From positions 1,670,767 through 1,734,766 of the forward strand of contig CH672415.1 in assembly GCA_000153145.1 (NCBI GenBank): DNA of 64,000 nt. Direction: 5' to 3'. The notes beneath the pieces are model-generated. The model had not been told where the DNA came from, ran no database searches, and worked only from the letters and a program-made list of their open reading frames with translations. The stretch is from a marine actinobacterium PHSC20C1. Lineage in GTDB: Bacteria; Actinomycetota; Actinomycetes; Actinomycetales; Microbacteriaceae. Shown here piece by piece: positions 53,885-62,473 of the stretch (positions are counted from its first letter, which is position 1; each line of letters opens with the position of its first letter). Made by a program: the position numbers and the translations under genes.

Positions 53885-54525
53885 GCGACACTGCCGTGAC
53901 CGCGGTCGATGCGACGCCACGCGTCATCCGCCTTCTTATTGCCGACGATGAGCACCTCATCCGGGGTGCACTCAGCGCGCTGCTCAATCTGGAGCCTGAC
54001 ATCGAGGTTGTCGCGAGTGTCGACAACGGTGTGGCTGCGGCGGAGCGTGCCCTCGAGCTGCAACCGGATGTCTGCCTGCTCGACCTCGAAATGCCGCAGG
54101 CCGACGGCATCGAGGCCGCCACCCGCATCCTCTCGACCGTCGCAACGAAGGTGGTCATCGTCACCCGCCATGCGCGGCCGGGCGTGCTGCGCCGGGCACT
54201 CGCCGCACGCGTCTCGGGCTTTGTACCCAAGTCGACACCCGCCGAGGACTTGGCTGCCGTGATCCGGGATGTCGTGGCCGGCAAACGCTACATTGATGCC
54301 GAAATTGCGGCGACGGCCCTCACTGCCGAACGCTGCCCCCTCACCGACCGGGAGCTCGATGCGCTGCGGTTCAGCCGCTCCACCATGAGCGTGCAGGAGA
54401 TCGCCGACACCCTACATCTCGCGCCGGGAACCGTGCGCAACTACCTGTCCTCTGCGATGACGAAACTCGACGCCCACTCTCGGCATGATGCCGCCGACAA
54501 GGCGTGGCAGCAGGGTTGGATCTAG
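53881..54525 (+). CDS. NarL/LuxR-type response regulator, DesR-like
   Basis: In this 214-residue protein the receiver domain is about 15-130, with the acidic pair IADDEH, phosphoacceptor aspartate in CLLDLEMP and the lysine in GFVPKS. A four-helix LuxR-type DNA-binding domain follows at 145-210 (LTDRELDALRFSRSTMSVQEIADTLHLAPGTVRNYLSSAMTKL). It is coupled to the kinase by ATGA. DesK/DesR systems sense membrane fluidity or envelope state, but no desaturase or other obvious target is next to this pair. The TAG stop shares CTAG with the convergent DUF4166 gene. Confidence 0.93.
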   Translation: MSDTAVTAVDATPRVIRLLIADDEHLIRGALSALLNLEPDIEVVASVDNGVAAAERALELQPDVCLLDLEMPQADGIEAATRILSTVATKVVIVTRHARPGVLRRALAARVSGFVPKSTPAEDLAAVIRDVVAGKRYIDAEIAATALTAERCPLTDRELDALRFSRSTMSVQEIADTLHLAPGTVRNYLSSAMTKLDAHSRHDAADKAWQQGWI

Positions 54526-55109
54526 CGGGACGTGTACCCGTAGGTGAAGTGCCCTGCGTAGCGAAACCAGTAGCCCAGTAGCGGGCTGTGGAGCCGAACA
54601 TCCACGTGCTGTTGTCCGTCTGCCCACGATTCGTCGACCGTGACGGTGGCGAGCGCGGGGATGCGGAGGCGCAGGCCGGCCAAGTGCAGCCACTGGCGGT
54701 CAGAGCGCAGCTGCATGCGGCCATCCATGACGGTGAGCGCCATGCGCACTTCGAAGCCGCCGCGTCGCCCCAAGAAATCGTGCAGGCGACCGTCCACGAC
54801 GCGCGTCTCATCCTGCAGTGGGCGGTCGCGGCCAGCGAAGTGGAAGGTGCGCACTGCGCCGAGACCGCCATCGGCAGTGGGGGTGTTGACGACATCGAAG
54901 GGCACACTGCGGGCGTACTCGGGGAAGAGGATGCGCTGCCAGGCTAGAAATGCCAGCACCGGTTTGAGGATGCGCAGTGGCGACCCCGCCACGTCGAAAA
55001 TGCCGCTGCCGACGCCGACGCGCTGACCGCCGTCGAAGTAGGGGCGAAGCTCGGGAGCCAGCAGATCGAGCTCGGCGCCGAGCACCCGCCGGTAGACCGA
55101 CTCGCTCAA
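54522..55109 (-). CDS. DUF4166 domain-containing protein
   Basis: This 195-residue protein has the pattern YRRVLGAELDLLAPELRPYF, GVGSGIFDVAGSPLRILKPVLAFLAWQRILFPEY, GAVRTFHFAGRDRPLQDETRV and LLGYWFRYAGHF typical of DUF4166 proteins, which often accompany saccharopine-dehydrogenase-like or NAD-epimerase domains. Function is unknown. The frame is open much further, but that part lies inside the GlxA gene. A TTG at 55109 overlapping the GlxA stop (TTGA) gives a natural N-terminus (MSESVYRRVLG) and coupling to it. Confidence 0.75.
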   Translation of the reverse strand: MSESVYRRVLGAELDLLAPELRPYFDGGQRVGVGSGIFDVAGSPLRILKPVLAFLAWQRILFPEYARSVPFDVVNTPTADGGLGAVRTFHFAGRDRPLQDETRVVDGRLHDFLGRRGGFEVRMALTVMDGRMQLRSDRQWLHLAGLRLRIPALATVTVDESWADGQQHVDVRLHSPLLGYWFRYAGHFTYGYTSR

Positions 55110-56089
55110 GCCGGAACCGACACTGGCACCGGCACGTGGGCTGCGCAACTGAAGCGGCTGCGATAAGCGCTGGGAGTCATGCCCAGTCTGCGCGCGAAGT
55201 TTTGCCTCAGCACGGCCGCAGAGCCGAAGCCGCTCTCCCATGCCACTTGCTCTAGTCCCAGCTCGGTTTCTTCGAGGAGTCTCTGCGCGTGGAGTAGTCG
55301 CTGCCGTCCAAGCCACGCCGCGGGGGTCGTTCCGAGGTCTGTTTTGAACCGTCGGGCGAAGGTGCGCGGAGACATCTGTGCTCGATGGGCGAGTTCCTCG
55401 ACCGGAAGCTCCTCACGGAGGTTCTGCAGCATCCATTCGGTGACGGCGGAGAACGAGAGTGAGTGCACGGCGGGCAGTGGTTTACTAATGAACTGTGCTT
55501 GTCCGCCATCTCGCTGCGGCGCAATGACCATGCGGCGGGCAATGCGATTGGTGATTTCGGCACCAAGCTCTTGCCTTAGTAGGTGCAGGCAAGCGTCGAT
55601 CCCGGCAGCCGTTCCGGCACTCGTAATGATGCGGTCATCCTGCACGTAAAGCACGTCAGGGTCGACATCAATCTGCGGGTACATCTCGGCAAACTTCTGC
55701 GCATACATCCAGTGCGTGGTCGCGCGACGACCATCCAGCAGTCCGGATGCCGCCAAAGTGAACGAGCCACTACAGATCGCGAGTATCCAGGCTCCACGCG
55801 CAACCGCACGCTCAAGTGCTGCTGACACTCGGGCATCCACTGTGCCCCACGTGGCGCGAGGAACCGGCGTCAGCACAATGACATCGGCCTCATCAGCGAA
55901 CGAAAGATCATTTTCGACGTTCATGGTGTAGCCGATGCTGCTGCGAATGGCGCCCGGATCTGCCGTCAGCACCCGGAAGTCGAACGACTGAATGCCTTCA
56001 TCCGTGCGGTCGAGCCCGAACGCCTCACACGCAAGCCCGAACTCGAATGGGGTGAATCCGTCTTGCACAATGACCGCTACACGTTCCAC
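55106..56089 (-). CDS. GlxA-type transcriptional regulator: DJ-1/PfpI domain plus AraC helix-turn-helix
   Basis: In this 327-residue protein residues about 5-175 are a DJ-1/PfpI-like sensor fold with the nucleophile-elbow segment WILAICSGSFTLAASGLLDGRRATTHW. Residues 225-315 are an AraC-type pair of helix-turn-helix units (ELAHRAQMSPRTFARRFKTDLGTTPAAWL and LEQVAWESGFGSAAVLRQNFARRLGMTPSAYR). Relatives regulate amino-acid, betaine or carnitine catabolism. It is divergent from a small membrane peptide gene. The gap between them carries the 13-bp element also found in front of the P450/IclR pair. Confidence 0.93.
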   Translation of the reverse strand: MERVAVIVQDGFTPFEFGLACEAFGLDRTDEGIQSFDFRVLTADPGAIRSSIGYTMNVENDLSFADEADVIVLTPVPRATWGTVDARVSAALERAVARGAWILAICSGSFTLAASGLLDGRRATTHWMYAQKFAEMYPQIDVDPDVLYVQDDRIITSAGTAAGIDACLHLLRQELGAEITNRIARRMVIAPQRDGGQAQFISKPLPAVHSLSFSAVTEWMLQNLREELPVEELAHRAQMSPRTFARRFKTDLGTTPAAWLGRQRLLHAQRLLEETELGLEQVAWESGFGSAAVLRQNFARRLGMTPSAYRSRFSCAAHVPVPVSVPA

Positions 56090-56335: not shown

Positions 56336-57526
56336 CTAAGCAGCAACCACCTTCAGCGGAAGTGACGACAGTCCTTTGAGAGTGTTGTGGAGATACGGCA
56401 CTGGCTCGCCCACGCGTTCGATGCGCTTCACTCGCGTTGCGAATGTCGTGAGCAACACGTCCATCTCGAGTCGCGAAATGGGCTGCCCAACACACTGATG
56501 GATGCCCATACCGAACGCCAAATGACCTCCAGCCTGACGCGTCAACTGATACTCATCCGCATCCTCACCCCACTGAGCAGGATCGCGATTCGCGGCTCCG
56601 GGAAACACGAGAACCTTCTGACCCTCATCGAGCTGGATGCCATGGAATTCGGTCGCTCGCGACGTCGTACGAAAGAACGACTGAAACGGTGACTCAAAAC
56701 GCAGCGCTTCGTCAATCGCAAACTTCATGAGCGACGGCTTCTCGTGCACGGCCTGCCACGCATCCGGGCTTGCGCTGAGGCAGCGGAGCGTGTTTCCGAT
56801 CGCGAGCGCCGTCGTGTCGAGACCAGCCGAAAGCAAGGCCCGCACCAGCAGCGCCGCCTGGTCGCTGGTGATTGCTCCGGCATCAGCGTGCTCCCAGATC
56901 TTTGAGCCGAGACCATCCGCGCTGAGATTTTCGCGGGCGCAGTTCGCCATCACCCAGTCGCGGGTGCCGTCACCCTTCGCAAAGTACTCGCGGTAGCGGT
57001 CATCCTCAGGCCCAAAAGCACTGAAGTTCATTGCACCGTGAGGCAACAGATTCTCCATGCGGCCGTCGCGTGGAATGCCAACAGCATCACCGAAGGCGCG
57101 GATGGGAAAGACTTCGGCGACCTCAGTGATCGCATCGAACTCGCCCTGGGCGATGAGCCCATCGAGCAGTTCGTCGGCAAACTCTTGGAACCCGGCGCGC
57201 AGGGAGCGCACGCCTCGCGGTGAAATGACATCGACCATCGCCGCCCGCATCGGGCCATGAATCGGCGGATCAGATTCGAGGATGCCCTGCGGTCGCCATG
57301 CCGGTTCATGGTGCAGGTTCTTGGGCCCAACGCCAGCGCCGTTGATGAACGTTTCGTGATCGACGAGGATGTCGCGAACTTCAGTATGCCGAGTGAATGC
57401 GAGCACGTCGTACCGCTCCAACCACACGGCAGGGCCAGCCCCGCGCATCCGCTCAAAGAGTGGATACGGGTCAGCGAGGTTCTCATCCGAATACGGGTCG
57501 TCGCTGAACGAAGAAATGGCAGACAT
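56336..57526 (-). CDS. cytochrome P450, CYP199A-like
   Basis: This 396-residue soluble bacterial P450 has the oxygen-activation helix ALLSAGLDTTALAIGN, the ExxR helix (EALRF), the haem-cysteine loop FGMGIHQCVGQPISRLEMDVLL and the C-terminal NTLKGLSSLPLKV. The stretches WRPQGILESDPPIHGPMR, AFGDAVGIPRDGRMENLLPHG and FESPFQSFFRTTSRATEF resemble CYP199A enzymes, which oxidise para-substituted benzoic and cinnamic acids, typically by O-demethylation. Both arginines that hold the substrate carboxylate there seem kept (WRP and LVRALLS), while the two helper serines are replaced. It is divergent from IclR. Its electrons may come from the reductase at 60152. Confidence 0.92.
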   Translation of the reverse strand: MSAISSFSDDPYSDENLADPYPLFERMRGAGPAVWLERYDVLAFTRHTEVRDILVDHETFINGAGVGPKNLHHEPAWRPQGILESDPPIHGPMRAAMVDVISPRGVRSLRAGFQEFADELLDGLIAQGEFDAITEVAEVFPIRAFGDAVGIPRDGRMENLLPHGAMNFSAFGPEDDRYREYFAKGDGTRDWVMANCARENLSADGLGSKIWEHADAGAITSDQAALLVRALLSAGLDTTALAIGNTLRCLSASPDAWQAVHEKPSLMKFAIDEALRFESPFQSFFRTTSRATEFHGIQLDEGQKVLVFPGAANRDPAQWGEDADEYQLTRQAGGHLAFGMGIHQCVGQPISRLEMDVLLTTFATRVKRIERVGEPVPYLHNTLKGLSSLPLKVVAA

Positions 57527-57580: not shown

Positions 57581-57606
57581 ACTGCCACTGTTGTTCTCAC
57601 ACAGTG
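57581..57606. promoter_or_regulatory. divergent P450/IclR control element
   Basis: ACTGCCACTGTTG (57581-57593) repeats the element at 56159-56171 exactly. Its CACTGT (57586-57591) also forms an inverted repeat with ACAGTG (57601-57606) across nine bases. It lies between the divergent P450 (starts 57526) and IclR (starts 57676) genes, a natural site for an IclR-type dimer. Confidence 0.6.
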
Positions 57607-57675
57607 AGACAGCCGTTTGTGGGTCAGGAACGTCGACGCAATGATGAGTCGACGCTCGAAGAGAGGATCACTGTC

Positions 57676-58458
57676 ATGGATTCATCCCTCGAGCGCGGGC
57701 TCGCGCTGCTCAGTGAGATCGCGACGTCAGGAGGCCACACCGCGCACACCCTTGCGGCAACGGTCGGACTCCCCCCGAGCACTACCTACCGATATCTCCG
57801 CACGCTGCGCGACACCGGCTACGTGCGAGAGGTGGACGGTCGCTACGAGCCAGGGCGTGAACTGCTGGCCCTCACCGGTCGCCACAGCGCCCAGTCCGCC
57901 CTCGCCGAAGTTGGCCCGGCAGTGTTGAGCAGCATCGTCGATGCCCTCGGTGAGACCGCAGTAATGATCGTTCGGGTCGGCACGCAGGCACTGTGTCTGC
58001 GAAAGTCCGAACCAGACAAAGCTCTCAAATACACCTTCGCCGTAAACCAACTGCTGCCGCTGCATGCCGGCGCCGGTCAGCGAGTTCTCCTGGCGTGGGC
58101 CCCCGAAACCGTGATCGAGCGAGTTCTTGAGGCCGAGCGTGAGCAGTACACCGACAACACCCTCACCACGGCGCAACTGCACCACACCGTCCAGAGTGTG
58201 CGGCAGACCGGCTGGGCTGTCTCCCGCGGGGAATACGAGGCGGGATCCGTCTCGGTTGCCGTGCCGGTGATGTTTCACGGCGAGGCCGTCTGTTCGCTCG
58301 ACGTCGCCGGCCCCGAATCCCGCTGCGGCGACAAAGGCTGGGTGCCTCGAGCGGTCACCGTGCTGCAATCAGCCGCCACCGACCTCACCGATGCGCTCGA
58401 AAGTTGGACAACATCCTCCTCGAAGGCAACATCTTCCTCGAAGAAAGGGACCTCATGA
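57676..58458 (+). CDS. IclR family transcriptional regulator
   Basis: In this 260-residue protein the N-terminal winged helix is about 1-65 (LERGLALLSEIATSGGHTAHTLAATVGLPPSTTYRYLRTL). The effector domain is about 80-250, with GAGQRVLLAWAPE in the ligand pocket and AVPVMFHGEAVCSLDVAGPE near the end. IclR proteins mostly control aromatic-acid catabolism. AGAGAGG precedes the ATG at 57676; the frame to 57604 is not supported. The stop overlaps the ATG of the lyase (ATGA), so regulator and enzyme are translated together. It likely also controls the divergent P450 gene. Confidence 0.92.
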   Translation: MDSSLERGLALLSEIATSGGHTAHTLAATVGLPPSTTYRYLRTLRDTGYVREVDGRYEPGRELLALTGRHSAQSALAEVGPAVLSSIVDALGETAVMIVRVGTQALCLRKSEPDKALKYTFAVNQLLPLHAGAGQRVLLAWAPETVIERVLEAEREQYTDNTLTTAQLHHTVQSVRQTGWAVSRGEYEAGSVSVAVPVMFHGEAVCSLDVAGPESRCGDKGWVPRAVTVLQSAATDLTDALESWTTSSSKATSSSKKGTS

Positions 58459-60155
58459 CCACGAAACCAGTTCTGCTGATCGGCGACGGAGCCGCAACAC
58501 TCACTGACCTGATCGACGTGGCACGCGACCGCCGACGCGTTGCCCTTGCCCCTGAAGTGGCCGAACGCATGGCACCCAGCCGCGACTGGATCGAAGGCAT
58601 CATCGGCGGCATGGAGGCGGGCAAAGACACCCCACCGATCTACAGCATCAACACCGGCTTCGGTTCCCTAGCCGGTCGACAAGCCTTCGATGACCCCGCG
58701 GATGCCGCTGAGCTAAGTCGCCGCCTCATACTGGCGGATGCTGCGGGCGTGGGTCGCAACGTCGAAGAAGAGGTTGTGCGCGCCACCATTTTCATTCGCA
58801 TCGTGAGTCTGACCCGCGGCTACTCGGGCGTGCAGTTCGCCATCGTGCAGGGCCTCGTGGACATGCTCAATAAGGATGTGTATCCGGCAGTTCCGGAGTA
58901 CGGTTCCCTCGGTGCCAGCGGCGACCTCATTCCCCTCGCCCACATCGCGATCGTGCTCACCGCTCCACCGAACGTTGACGGCAAACCAGTCGACGATGAC
59001 CCTCTCGACTCCGGCGAAGCGTTTGTGGATGGCCGGATTGTGAGCGGTGTCGAAGCGATGGCGCACGCGGGTATCCCGCGCATCCCGATCTCTGCCAAGG
59101 ATGGTTTGGCGCTCTTGAACGGCACCTCGTTCTCGGCAGCGCAGGCAGCCTTGGCCCTCTGGGATGCGCAGGTTCTGCTGGACACCGCCACGATTACCGC
59201 CGTCATGTCAATTGAGGCACTGCGCGGCTTCGGCGACGCTTTCATTGCGGAACTGCATGACGCTCGAGGCCAGAAGGGCCAAATTGCGATCGCTTCGCGC
59301 ATCCGCCAACTGCTGAGCGACAGCACCTTCGTCACCGGTGATCGCGACAACAATCCCGATCGTCAACCGCCGCAAGACGCCTACTCGCTACGGTGCGTGC
59401 CGCAAGTGTTCGGGCCAGTGAAAGACACTCTCGACTTTGTTGCTGGAATCATCGAGACCGAGATCAACGCTGCGACCGATAACCCGCTCATCATTCCCGA
59501 GCTCCCGTCGAGTAGAAGCCTCAAGGCAGTATCTGGCGGCAACTTCCACGCCGAGTATCTCGCTTTCGCCGCCGACTTCCTCTCAATCGTTGTGACAGAG
59601 ATCGGCAACATCACCGAACGGCGGCTGTTCCGCCTCGATGACGGGACTCTCAACCGTGGCCTTCCGGACATGCTCGTCGCTAGCGAAAAAGTTGGGCTCG
59701 ACTGCGGGTTCATGCTGCCGCAATACCTAGCTGCCGCTCTCGTTTCGGATTGCAAGACGCTCGCGCATCCCGACAGCGTCGACTCGATCCCCACTAGCGC
59801 GAATCAAGAAGACCACGTCTCCATGGCGAACAACGCTGGCCGTCACGCGCGAACGATTGTCAGCAATATCCAGCAAGTGGTCGCCATTGAACTACTCATG
59901 GCCACCCAGGCACTCGAGCTTCGAGAAATCGAACGAAAGGGCACCGGGCAAACAATGGGAACGGCCAGCCGTGCCGCCGTCGCACTCGTGCGCGGCACGC
60001 CCGCTAGCGATGGTCGGCCCAACGGTCACCTGAAGAAGGATGCCGTTCTGTATCCCCGCATCCGCGCCGTCGCCGAACTCGTGACGAGTGGTGCCGTGAT
60101 CCGTGCTGCGGATGCTGCGCTCACCCCTGAGGGCACAGCAGCGGGCGAGCAATGA
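58455..60155 (+). CDS. aromatic amino acid ammonia-lyase (HAL/PAL/TAL family) of unusual selectivity
   Basis: This 566-residue enzyme eliminates ammonia from an aromatic amino acid using the self-made MIO cofactor. The MIO triad is Ala154-Ser155-Gly156 (YGSLGASGDLIPLAHI), the catalytic tyrosine Tyr63 (YSINTGFGSLAG), and the acid loop NQEDHVSM is present. The residue pair that sets ring preference is Ser-His in histidine lyase, His-Leu in bacterial tyrosine lyase and Phe-Leu in phenylalanine lyase. Here it is Ala94-Asp95 (LILADAAGVG), which fits none. The chain is also about 55 residues longer than P. putida HutH, and no other hut gene is near. It is coupled to IclR and to the reductase by ATGA overlaps. 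Confidence 0.9.
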   Translation: MTTKPVLLIGDGAATLTDLIDVARDRRRVALAPEVAERMAPSRDWIEGIIGGMEAGKDTPPIYSINTGFGSLAGRQAFDDPADAAELSRRLILADAAGVGRNVEEEVVRATIFIRIVSLTRGYSGVQFAIVQGLVDMLNKDVYPAVPEYGSLGASGDLIPLAHIAIVLTAPPNVDGKPVDDDPLDSGEAFVDGRIVSGVEAMAHAGIPRIPISAKDGLALLNGTSFSAAQAALALWDAQVLLDTATITAVMSIEALRGFGDAFIAELHDARGQKGQIAIASRIRQLLSDSTFVTGDRDNNPDRQPPQDAYSLRCVPQVFGPVKDTLDFVAGIIETEINAATDNPLIIPELPSSRSLKAVSGGNFHAEYLAFAADFLSIVVTEIGNITERRLFRLDDGTLNRGLPDMLVASEKVGLDCGFMLPQYLAAALVSDCKTLAHPDSVDSIPTSANQEDHVSMANNAGRHARTIVSNIQQVVAIELLMATQALELREIERKGTGQTMGTASRAAVALVRGTPASDGRPNGHLKKDAVLYPRIRAVAELVTSGAVIRAADAALTPEGTAAGEQ

Positions 60156-61111
60156 GCATCGACCTTCGAGTACTCAGCAGGGAAACCGTTGCCGACAGGG
60201 TTGACGCTTTCACTCTCGGTCGCCCCGACGGCAGAGCACTTCCCGCGTGGACGCCTGGCTCGCACATCGATCTGACGCTGCCCGGCGGCCTGATCCGGCA
60301 GTATTCGCTGTGTTCTGACCCCGCCGACTCCGTGACGTGGCGGGTTGCCGTTCTCCACGAGCCGGACGGTCGGGGCGGTTCAGTCGCCGCCCACAAATAT
60401 TTGCAGGTCGGGGCTCGGGTTCACGCTGATGGCCCTCGCGACAACTTCGGTTTTACTGCCGAGTCGGCACAGGGAGACAGCGCGGCTCCGTCAGCTGACG
60501 TGCTCTTCATCGCGGGAGGGATTGGGATCACTCCAATACTGCCCATGCTTCGTGCGGCCGACGCCGCCGGAACAAACTGGCGCCTGCTCTATCTCGGACG
60601 CTCCCGCGAGTCAATGAGTTTTCTTGGCGAGCTCGAGGCCTACGGTGACCGGGTGATCGTGCATCCGGGCCATGATCGTGGACGAATCGACCTAGCCGTT
60701 GCCATAGCGACTGCCGGAGTGGTCACACCCCGAGTCTTTGCGTGCGGGCCCGAGCGCATGCTCGAAGCCGTCGCTGCCTACTGCCCAGCCGGGTCGCTTA
60801 ATGTTGAACGGTTCACTGGCAACGGAACAGGAGCCGAGAGTACCGACACTGCATTCATCGTCGAAACCAACGATGGCACCGAGATCGCCGTAGCCGCCGA
60901 CGAAACTATCTTGGCGGCGATGACTCGCTGTGGGGTGCCGGCGCTCAATTCCTGCCAAGAAGGCATCTGTGGAACCTGCGAGACCGTCGTGCTCGGCGGA
61001 GTACCCCTCCATCGCGACGAAGTGCTCAGCGACGAGGAACGCGAGAGCAATGAAACCATGATGATTTGCGTGTCCCGCAGCGTCGGCGAGCGCCTCGTTC
61101 TCGACCTGTGA
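60152..61111 (+). CDS. flavin and [2Fe-2S] oxidoreductase, phthalate dioxygenase reductase type
   Basis: In this 319-residue NAD(P)H-dependent electron carrier, the FMN/FAD-binding barrel (RQYSLCSDPADS) is followed by the nucleotide domain (LFIAGGIGITPILPMLRAA, FACGPERMLEAV). A C-terminal plant-type ferredoxin domain carries the four-cysteine set CQEGICGTCETVVL plus a late cysteine in MMICVSRS. Such reductases feed Rieske oxygenases or, in some systems, P450s. No oxygenase other than the P450 at 56336 is near, so it is the likely partner. Its ATG overlaps the lyase stop. Confidence 0.93.
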   Translation: MSIDLRVLSRETVADRVDAFTLGRPDGRALPAWTPGSHIDLTLPGGLIRQYSLCSDPADSVTWRVAVLHEPDGRGGSVAAHKYLQVGARVHADGPRDNFGFTAESAQGDSAAPSADVLFIAGGIGITPILPMLRAADAAGTNWRLLYLGRSRESMSFLGELEAYGDRVIVHPGHDRGRIDLAVAIATAGVVTPRVFACGPERMLEAVAAYCPAGSLNVERFTGNGTGAESTDTAFIVETNDGTEIAVAADETILAAMTRCGVPALNSCQEGICGTCETVVLGGVPLHRDEVLSDEERESNETMMICVSRSVGERLVLDL

Positions 61112-61171: not shown

Positions 61172-62035
61172 ATGACTGATCTGCTCGCTGCCGACACCGC
61201 GATGGGCGCGGTCACGCTCAGCGTCGCCAACCTCGACGCCCTCACCGCCTATTACCGAGATGCCGTCGCCCTCACTGTGCTCAGCGAGTCATCCGACACA
61301 GTCGTTCTCGGTCGCGGCACGACGCCCGTCGTCATCCTCAAGCATTCGCCAGCGCTCAAGCATGCGAGCCCTCGCGATGCCGGACTCTTTCACACAGCCA
61401 TCCTCTTCGACACCGAAGAAGCTCTCGCCGCCTCCGTCTACTCGGTCGCCACTCGGTACCCGAAAACGTTCACGGGCAGCTCAGACCACCTTGTCAGTAA
61501 AGCCTTCTACTTCACCGACCCCGAAGGCAACGGCGTCGAGCTGTATTGGGATCGCGACCGCACCGAGTGGAGCTGGGCTCACGGCACCGTCGAAATGAGC
61601 ACACTCTTTCTCGACCCCAACAAATTTCTGCAAGAGAACCTCACCGAGAGCGCTGTCGAACAGCCCGTCATCGGTGGCGCGCGCGTCGGTCACGTACACC
61701 TGCAGGTCGGTGACGTGACGACCGCACGCGAGTTCTACGTCAACCAGCTCGGGTTCGAAGCAACCACAGAGATCCCCGGCAGCGCCGTGTTCGTGAGTGC
61801 CGGCGGCTACCACCACCACATGGCCATGAACACGTGGAACTCCAGCGGCGCCGGTGCACGGCTGCCAGCGCTCGGCCTCGCCCAAGTCGATATTGCGGTG
61901 CCGACAGCCGACGACCTCGGAGAGCTGGGCGAACGGATGACGCACCACGGCATCCAACTGCGAAACGACGGTGACACTCTCACGTTCGGTGACCCGTGGG
62001 CCAACCAAATCCGGGTAACGACCGCCGCGAAATAG
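61172..62035 (+). CDS. VOC superfamily protein, CatE-like two-domain type
   Basis: In this 287-residue protein two vicinal-oxygen-chelate modules are visible (about 10-130 and 165-285). The C-terminal one, which holds the metal in catechol 2,3-dioxygenase-like CatE proteins, keeps the two histidines (VGHVHLQV and YHHHMAMNTW). The glutamate expected in the last strand is replaced by arginine (DPWANQIRV), so dioxygenase activity is doubtful. It could be a glyoxalase-like or binding protein. It follows the reductase by 60 bp in the same direction and probably belongs to the aromatic locus. Confidence 0.85.
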   Translation: MTDLLAADTAMGAVTLSVANLDALTAYYRDAVALTVLSESSDTVVLGRGTTPVVILKHSPALKHASPRDAGLFHTAILFDTEEALAASVYSVATRYPKTFTGSSDHLVSKAFYFTDPEGNGVELYWDRDRTEWSWAHGTVEMSTLFLDPNKFLQENLTESAVEQPVIGGARVGHVHLQVGDVTTAREFYVNQLGFEATTEIPGSAVFVSAGGYHHHMAMNTWNSSGAGARLPALGLAQVDIAVPTADDLGELGERMTHHGIQLRNDGDTLTFGDPWANQIRVTTAAK

Positions 62036-62098
62036 CGCGAAGGTCGGTGTAGAAAAAAGTGCTTGCCAAAGCGAGTCTTGCGGCGCACACTGTTTTTC

Positions 62099-62473
62099 GT
62101 GGACGCCGATCCCGTAACAACTAATCCGGAACATTACTCCGTGGTGTTCGAGAATGACCGCGTACGAGTGCTTGAGTACACCGACGCGGCCGGCGACAAA
62201 ACAACGCCGCACGAGCATCCCGATAGCGTCATGTACACGCTCAGTGATTTTCGCCGACGCCTCCACGCTGGAGACACCCATCGTGATGTCGAACTGCCCG
62301 CGGGCAAAGCCGTCTGGTTACCCGCGCAGCGGCACAGTGGTGAAAACATCGGCAATACCGCGACGCATGTGATCTTCGTGGAGCTGAAAGGCGGTGCGAC
62401 CGACGCTACCGGAGCGACGAGCGCAACAGACGCCACCGACGTTCAACCGGGCGACTGGATCGGCCCCGCCTAG
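62099..62473 (+). CDS. small cupin-fold protein
   Basis: This 124-residue protein has a cupin barrel pattern: VFENDRVRVLEY, TTPHEHPDSVMY (histidine pair), then LPAGKAVWLPAQRHSGENIGNTATHVIFVELKG. A threonine/alanine/aspartate repeat (ATDATGATSATDATD) forms the C-terminal tail. Start codons are ambiguous. The GTG at 62099 gives the natural N-terminus (MDADPVTTNPEHYSV), while a TTG at 62063 would add 12 residues. It is the last gene in the plus-strand run, 63 bp after the VOC gene. Function is unknown; many such cupins are small dioxygenases or sugar-binding proteins. Confidence 0.75.
   Translation: MDADPVTTNPEHYSVVFENDRVRVLEYTDAAGDKTTPHEHPDSVMYTLSDFRRRLHAGDTHRDVELPAGKAVWLPAQRHSGENIGNTATHVIFVELKGGATDATGATSATDATDVQPGDWIGPA

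Follow-up and report, generated by a model that had tools for sequence, protein, structure and literature searches.

The window, a stretch of 64,000 nucleotides from a genome of 2.77 Mb on a single contig, carries an ammonia-lyase gene of the MIO type between an IclR-family regulator gene and a reductase gene, with a cytochrome P450 gene on the far side of the regulator (Table 1). The lyase reading frame encodes 566 amino acids without an inner stop, and the gene is real and intact. As the sequence-only reading had described, it is joined to both flanking genes by overlaps, which measure four bases each: the IclR gene ends at 58458, past the lyase ATG at 58455, and the lyase ends at 60155, past the reductase ATG at 60152. 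The P450 reported nearby was also found. The IclR start is ambiguous (GTG at 57604 or in-frame ATG at 57676). The GC content of the four genes is 0.605-0.639 and that of the window 0.601. The best solved relatives of the reductase are the P450-reductase fusion chains 6kbh and 6laa and the phthalate dioxygenase reductase 2pia.

Table 1. Genes and residues of the lyase locus, in window coordinates
Feature	Coordinates	Strand	Basis and remarks
CYP199-like cytochrome P450, divergent from the IclR gene	56336..57526	-	PF00067; solved relatives PbdA, CYP199A2/A4; pocket residues
IclR-family regulator	57604..58458	+	PF01614, PF09339; present in 14/14 P450 loci
MIO ammonia-lyase, histidine-lyase family branch	58455..60155	+	PF00221, 532 bits; alignment, tree
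Ala94-Asp95 codons, at the Ser82-His83 site of P. putida HAL	58734..58739	+	Alignment
MIO-forming Ala154-Ser155-Gly156	58914..58922	+	Translation, alignment
FAD/NAD reductase with C-terminal [2Fe-2S] domain, presumed P450 electron donor	60152..61111	+	Pfam; solved relatives

Upstream of the P450, positions 54522-56089 encode an FtrA-like AraC/DJ-1 regulator and a DUF4166 protein; neither had a match among the related loci compared. Downstream of the reductase, a glyoxalase-like gene (61172-62035) and a cupin-like gene (62063-62473) were considered as pathway parts and rejected, being present only in the same-genus loci L122 and L123 when 24 stretches, 20 of them from the clade, were searched.

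Family position and ring-binding pair of the lyase

The MIO triad, Tyr63 and the Gln-Glu-Asp-His loop (Gln451-Glu452-Asp453-His454), which the sequence-only reading had taken as signs of an active enzyme, were all found by translation and alignment. Tyr63, Asn222, Gln307, Tyr310, Arg313, Met420 and Glu452 correspond to Tyr53, Asn195, Gln277, Tyr280, Arg283, Met382 and Glu414 of Pseudomonas putida histidine ammonia-lyase (HAL), and Ala94-Asp95, proposed to occupy the ring-specificity site, indeed align with Ser82-His83 of its chain 1gkm. With HutH (1gkm of P. putida; 7tqr) the enzyme shares the MIO triad, Tyr53, Asn195, Gln277, Tyr280, Arg283, Phe329, Met382 and Glu414. It differs from HutH in that Ala-Asp replaces Ser82-His83, 12 near-fixed positions are altered throughout its branch, the cut-off of TIGR01225 is missed and the neighboring genes are different.

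A His-Leu or Phe-Leu pair marks the tyrosine and phenylalanine lyase classes. The window enzyme has neither of these pairs, and position 414 is occupied by Glu. Histidine ammonia-lyase is characterized by a Ser-His motif in the ring-binding region, according to an excerpt of PMC11432326; this motif is absent as well, since the enzyme has Ala94-Asp95. Family models gave a mixed picture. The lyase scored 510.2 bits on the hutH equivalog TIGR01225, under its cut-off of 539.15, as did all five branch lyases scanned (503-517 bits versus 539), the ordinary HutH of the same genome reaching 617. It was accepted by PRK09367, the NCBIfam histidine-lyase subfamily model (531.5 bits, cut-off 524), and its best score on the tyrosine/phenylalanine lyase and aminomutase equivalogs was 330.7 against a cut-off of 800.

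The enzyme had been placed outside the HAL, TAL and PAL classes. This was not borne out: as judged by the tree, it is a branch of the histidine-lyase family, and it keeps Met382 and Glu414-Asp415-His416, unlike the Streptomyces globisporus tyrosine aminomutase and the S. clavuligerus lyase. Tyrosine-type references carry Ala or Gln at 382 and Gln at 414. Nor does the pair serve as a class marker, the use first made of it: the S. globisporus aminomutase reference also reads Ser-His, so that the pair alone has no class-defining power, and it varies within the branch.

This branch comprises 20 sequences (support 100/100). Inside it, the 14 P450-linked lyases form one group (99/97) and the Ala-Asp lyases are grouped with support 100/98; the two trees were built from selected rows, with 27 and 9 relatives from outside the branch. 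For comparison, we defined 116 ordinary relatives as lyases with less than 50% identity and more than 240 bits, counting identical ones once and keeping five references apart. In the alignment, His83 occurs in 113 of these 116 versus none of the 20 branch members (12 Asp, 8 Asn). Position 82 is Ser in 112 of the ordinary relatives and Ala in 11 of the 20. The sequence-only reading had counted on a clade with Ala-Asp and on the rarity of this pair among ordinary histidine lyases, and both hold: Ala-Asp is found in 11/20 branch members and 0/116 ordinary relatives. Ser-Asn and Ser-Asp are the other pairs seen in the branch. The whole branch also differs at eleven more positions, including Gln76, Met200, Phe370 and Ser379, where the ordinary relatives agree to at least 90%, and Tyr53, Asn195, Gln277, Tyr280, Arg283, Met382 and Glu414 are retained in the six branch members compared. 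Three P450-linked lyases retain Ser-Asn, so the pair does not strictly follow the module. As read from alignment and tree, the common mark of the branch is the loss of His83, the older change, and Ala94 arose later, inside the P450 group.

Outside the branch, two lyases from Oscillospiraceae/Lachnospiraceae MAGs (L067, 8001-9521; L079, 8001-9479) carry Ser-Asp, possibly an independent His83 change. A Gemmatimonadota lyase (L039, 8001-9614), also outside it, carries Asn-Cys and adjoins an ordinary-type urocanase and an amidohydrolase, so that an altered pair need not signal a new substrate.

Related loci and their two modules

At E 1e-105 or better, and with the own genome counted, matches to the lyase occurred in 3 of 27 genus genomes, in 9 of 396 genomes of the order sample and in 2 of 394 of the class sample, neither of them new; at E 1e-110, the single match in the phylum sample (1/396) was the own genome. 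In the family sample, 7 of 398 genomes, the own one included, had a match of at least 63% identity. A scan of contigs added, among the matches listed, Arthrobacter sp. SDTb3-6 (L034), a MAG contig titled Rubellimicrobium (L035) and an Actinomycetes MAG (L036), and a plasmid search added Streptomyces sp. NBC_00841 (L192).

Conserved P450 and IclR neighbors, which the sequence-only reading had looked to as a sign of novelty, accompany the lyase in 14 loci (window, L122-L125, L128-L136). The other 13 lyases are 62-97% identical to that of the window, and such recurrence argues for a grouping beyond chance. A reductase match is present in 11 of the 14, directly downstream and on the same strand in seven; some of the remaining matches, only 36-42% alike, could represent different reductases. 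Among the three P450 loci with no reductase match, L124 and L134 reach a contig end 145 and 1,400 bases past the lyase and L129 does not.

Five further loci (L126, L127, L034, L036, L192) carry instead a divergent urocanase. P450 and divergent urocanase were never found together; the 20th locus, L035, is cut by the contig end, so that 126 bases precede the lyase, and its downstream sequence gave no urocanase match. HutI and HutF were identified at these hut-like loci by family models (L034, L126), tblastn (L192) and clustering (L127), and clustering gave only a HutF-like gene at L036. An IclR match was present at L126, L036 and L192, divergent and adjacent at the last, and was not found at L034 and L127. 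The claim that the lyase has no hut neighbors is thus right for the window, the only urocanase of the genome lying at 1.512-1.515 Mb, and fails for the sister loci, which do have hut-type neighbors. Hut-like loci lie at the base of the branch, which makes the direction of the module switch likely and no more than likely, since a single hut-like clade is also compatible with the data (p 0.094, tree test). On the linear plasmid of Streptomyces sp. NBC_00841 (L192, 4692-17992), the hut-like operon, read by eye, lies amid transposase-like ORFs and a reverse-transcriptase-type gene and may be mobile.

The linked urocanases pass the hutU cut-off of 375 with 620-642 bits (own ordinary HutU, 888). They score 620-645 on the S-methyl-thiourocanate hydratase model, on which the own HutU has 681; the thiourocanate-specific cut-offs (880 and 930) are far above these scores. 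HutI and HutF also pass their cut-offs at L034 and L126, so the sister loci may hold an extra ordinary hut operon. We compared 81 urocanase matches, reduced to 62 ordinary and 4 linked after 15 repeats were dropped. All four distinct linked enzymes depart from the 62 at 21 positions where at least 95% of the latter share one residue. Nineteen ordinary urocanases (from 16 genomes plus L201, L203 and L204) have 20 or 21 of these residues, as does the sole urocanase of each of the 14 P450 genomes, and the linked urocanases L202, L205 and L206 have 0/21. The changes in the invariant core point to something other than plain urocanate as the product of the neighboring lyase, and the family cut-offs argue the opposite. 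Given the differences at near-invariant positions, a histidine analogue is the probable substrate of the branch.

The P450 of the window has PbdA (9g9q), CYP199A2 and CYP199A4 as best solved relatives, with 46.1% identity to PbdA and 42.8% to CYP199A4. Membership of the CYP199 family is set at about 40% identity or more, and the P450 lies above this value. Its pocket positions were placed by the Arg-Pro-Pro-Ser motif. The carboxylate arginine, the adjacent arginine, Phe182, Phe185 and Phe298 are common to CYP199A enzymes (PbdA with PbdB; CYP199A4) and 14/14 lyase-linked P450s. These differ from CYP199A in having Asn at 181 and Phe at 295, in all 14, and in forming a separate clade. In CYP199A4, Arg92, Ser95 and Ser244 hold the carboxylate, according to excerpts of PMC11530827 and PMC11854964; the arginine of this triad is retained and both serines are lost in 14/14 lyase-linked P450s. 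In the tree, they form one clade (100/97) apart from seven other P450s of the family sample and two references. The search of 329 family genomes gave 11 P450 matches, four in genomes with a branch lyase (68-100% identity) and seven in genomes without (40-53%). Five of these seven retain both serines, L185 retains one and L191 is too divergent to call. At L198 (8104-11307, genome G080), a P450 53% like that of the window lies with a reductase and an IclR-like ORF, and without lyase; it retains one carboxylate serine.

All 18 genomes searched, i.e. 16 (the 14 P450 genomes, G367 and G075) plus G1499 (L034) and G1500 (L036), and the one plasmid record searched (W01, L192) also contain a lyase of the ordinary Ser-His type and an ordinary urocanase. 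In the own genome, the only urocanase and the only other PF00221 gene both lie at contig 1.512-1.515 Mb, outside the window, the lyase studied here being at 1.729 Mb. Each of the 14 P450 genomes has one urocanase, and G367 and G075 have two each. In G064, a distance of about 7 kb separates the P450 from the ordinary HutI-HutU-HutH genes. Since any match to the lyase query is seen in 245 of the 398 family genomes and in 9 of the 10 genus members sampled, the presence of an ordinary hut pathway counts as support and not as proof.

A candidate route from methylhistidine to urocanate

These features suggest, with about even confidence, an operon of lyase and P450 specialized for a ring-modified histidine, most likely Nτ-methylhistidine, whose methyl group would be removed to yield urocanate for the hut pathway. 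The lyase would eliminate ammonia from Nτ-methylhistidine by MIO chemistry, giving Nτ-methylurocanate. The co-transcribed reductase would feed electrons to the CYP199-like P450, which would oxidize the methyl group; this would leave as formaldehyde, and the resulting urocanate would enter the ordinary HutU pathway, whose genes lie elsewhere in the genome. The IclR protein would switch the operon. We infer the substrate, the order of steps, the formaldehyde release and the regulation. An alanine with an aspartate or asparagine in the pocket might accommodate a methylated ring. Against this reading, PRK09367 accepts the lyase, the sister operons may be ordinary hut operons, the P450 lacks the two serines that grip the carboxylate in CYP199A4, the pair varies among P450-linked lyases, and L039 combines an altered pair with an ordinary-type urocanase.

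The P450 genomes hold a single, ordinary urocanase, so the product of the lyase must become urocanate in order to use the hut pathway. The P450 is the candidate for this step because it is the enzyme present at all 14 loci that could carry it out, and loss of the methyl group from methylurocanate is the shortest step to urocanate. The reverse order, with the P450 acting before the lyase, was rejected by reasoning, as it would deliver free histidine, for which the cell would not require an additional lyase. Muscle protein and dipeptides could plausibly supply methylhistidine as a nutrient.

An excerpt of PMC11530827 reports that CYP199A4 carries out N-demethylation. A passage of PMC11432326 gives Nτ-methylhistidine as a substrate of histidine lyase, with reference to Beliaeva et al. 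2022; the reference list contains, by Beliaeva, Atac and Seebeck (2022), 'Bacterial Degradation of Nτ-Methylhistidine'. Likened by this title, the pathway described there probably shares the substrate and first step with ours. Among the open-licence papers searched, we found none joining methylhistidine, histidine lyase and P450; those on CYP199 with ammonia-lyase had titles on phenolic and aromatic production, a mixed search gave no title on this pairing, and no title concerned bacterial methylurocanate breakdown.

A bolder reading, which we put forward a little more tentatively, is that of a two-enzyme adaptor: a lyase lacking His83 would take the methylated ring and a CYP199-like P450 would demethylate methylurocanate into the ordinary histidine pathway, replacing in Micrococcales-type genomes the complete parallel hydratase-amidohydrolase route of the sister lyases. 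If so, two unrelated modules, one consisting of a P450 and its reductase and the other of a copied hut operon, would solve the same problem behind a single lyase branch, providing a natural test of ring choice by ammonia-lyases. P450 N-demethylation would join amino-acid breakdown, the lyase could be used to make N-methylurocanates, and the annotation would be corrected, a library model calling the gene histidine ammonia-lyase.

Alternative substrates and functions

All the sequence evidence for a histidine-like ring in an altered pocket also fits a different histidine analogue, whose substituent the P450 would remove or oxidize; Nπ-methylhistidine is one example, and other azole amino acids or amino acids with a substituted ring are further ones. 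We consider this unlikely, though well within consideration. CYP199A enzymes oxidize the group across the ring from the carboxylate, e.g. in p-methoxybenzoate (PMC11530827, in excerpt), a geometry that would resemble the Nτ more than the Nπ methyl. Less probable again is that the enzyme serves as an additional, separately controlled histidine lyase of the ordinary kind and that the P450 acts on something unrelated. The retained histidine-lyase catalytic residues, the PRK09367 score and the hutU, hutI and hutF cut-offs passed in sister operons all agree with it, but all five branch members scanned miss the hutH equivalog cut-off, His83 is lost in 20/20, the linked urocanase is altered at 21 near-invariant positions, and the P450 linked at 14 loci is itself one clade. 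These points support the view of the sequence-only reading that ordinary histidine degradation is unlikely; its observation is confirmed, and its interpretation partly supported.

It is quite improbable that O-methyltyrosine or a related aromatic amino acid is converted to a methoxycinnamate and O-demethylated by the P450. Although CYP199A enzymes O-demethylate para-methoxy aromatic acids (PMC11530827, in excerpt), the lyase keeps the histidine-type Met382 and Glu414 where tyrosine-type references differ, its sisters lie in hut-like operons, and the linked P450s lack the two carboxylate serines that 5/7 lyase-free relatives retain. Breakdown of ergothioneine or another thiohistidine appears very improbable indeed. 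The linked urocanase does score about equally on the S-methyl-thiourocanate hydratase model and hutU (645 and 642 bits), but both values are far under the specific cut-offs, and the own ordinary HutU also reaches 681 on the hydratase model. The lyase itself has 134.5 bits to the ergothionase 6s7j versus 306.4 to P. putida HAL, and each of the 14 P450 genomes has only one urocanase, an ordinary one.

In the MAG of L036 (G1500), two further urocanases and three further lyases were left outside our comparison; its four urocanase and five PF00221 matches perhaps reflect several histidine-analogue pathways or mixed bins.
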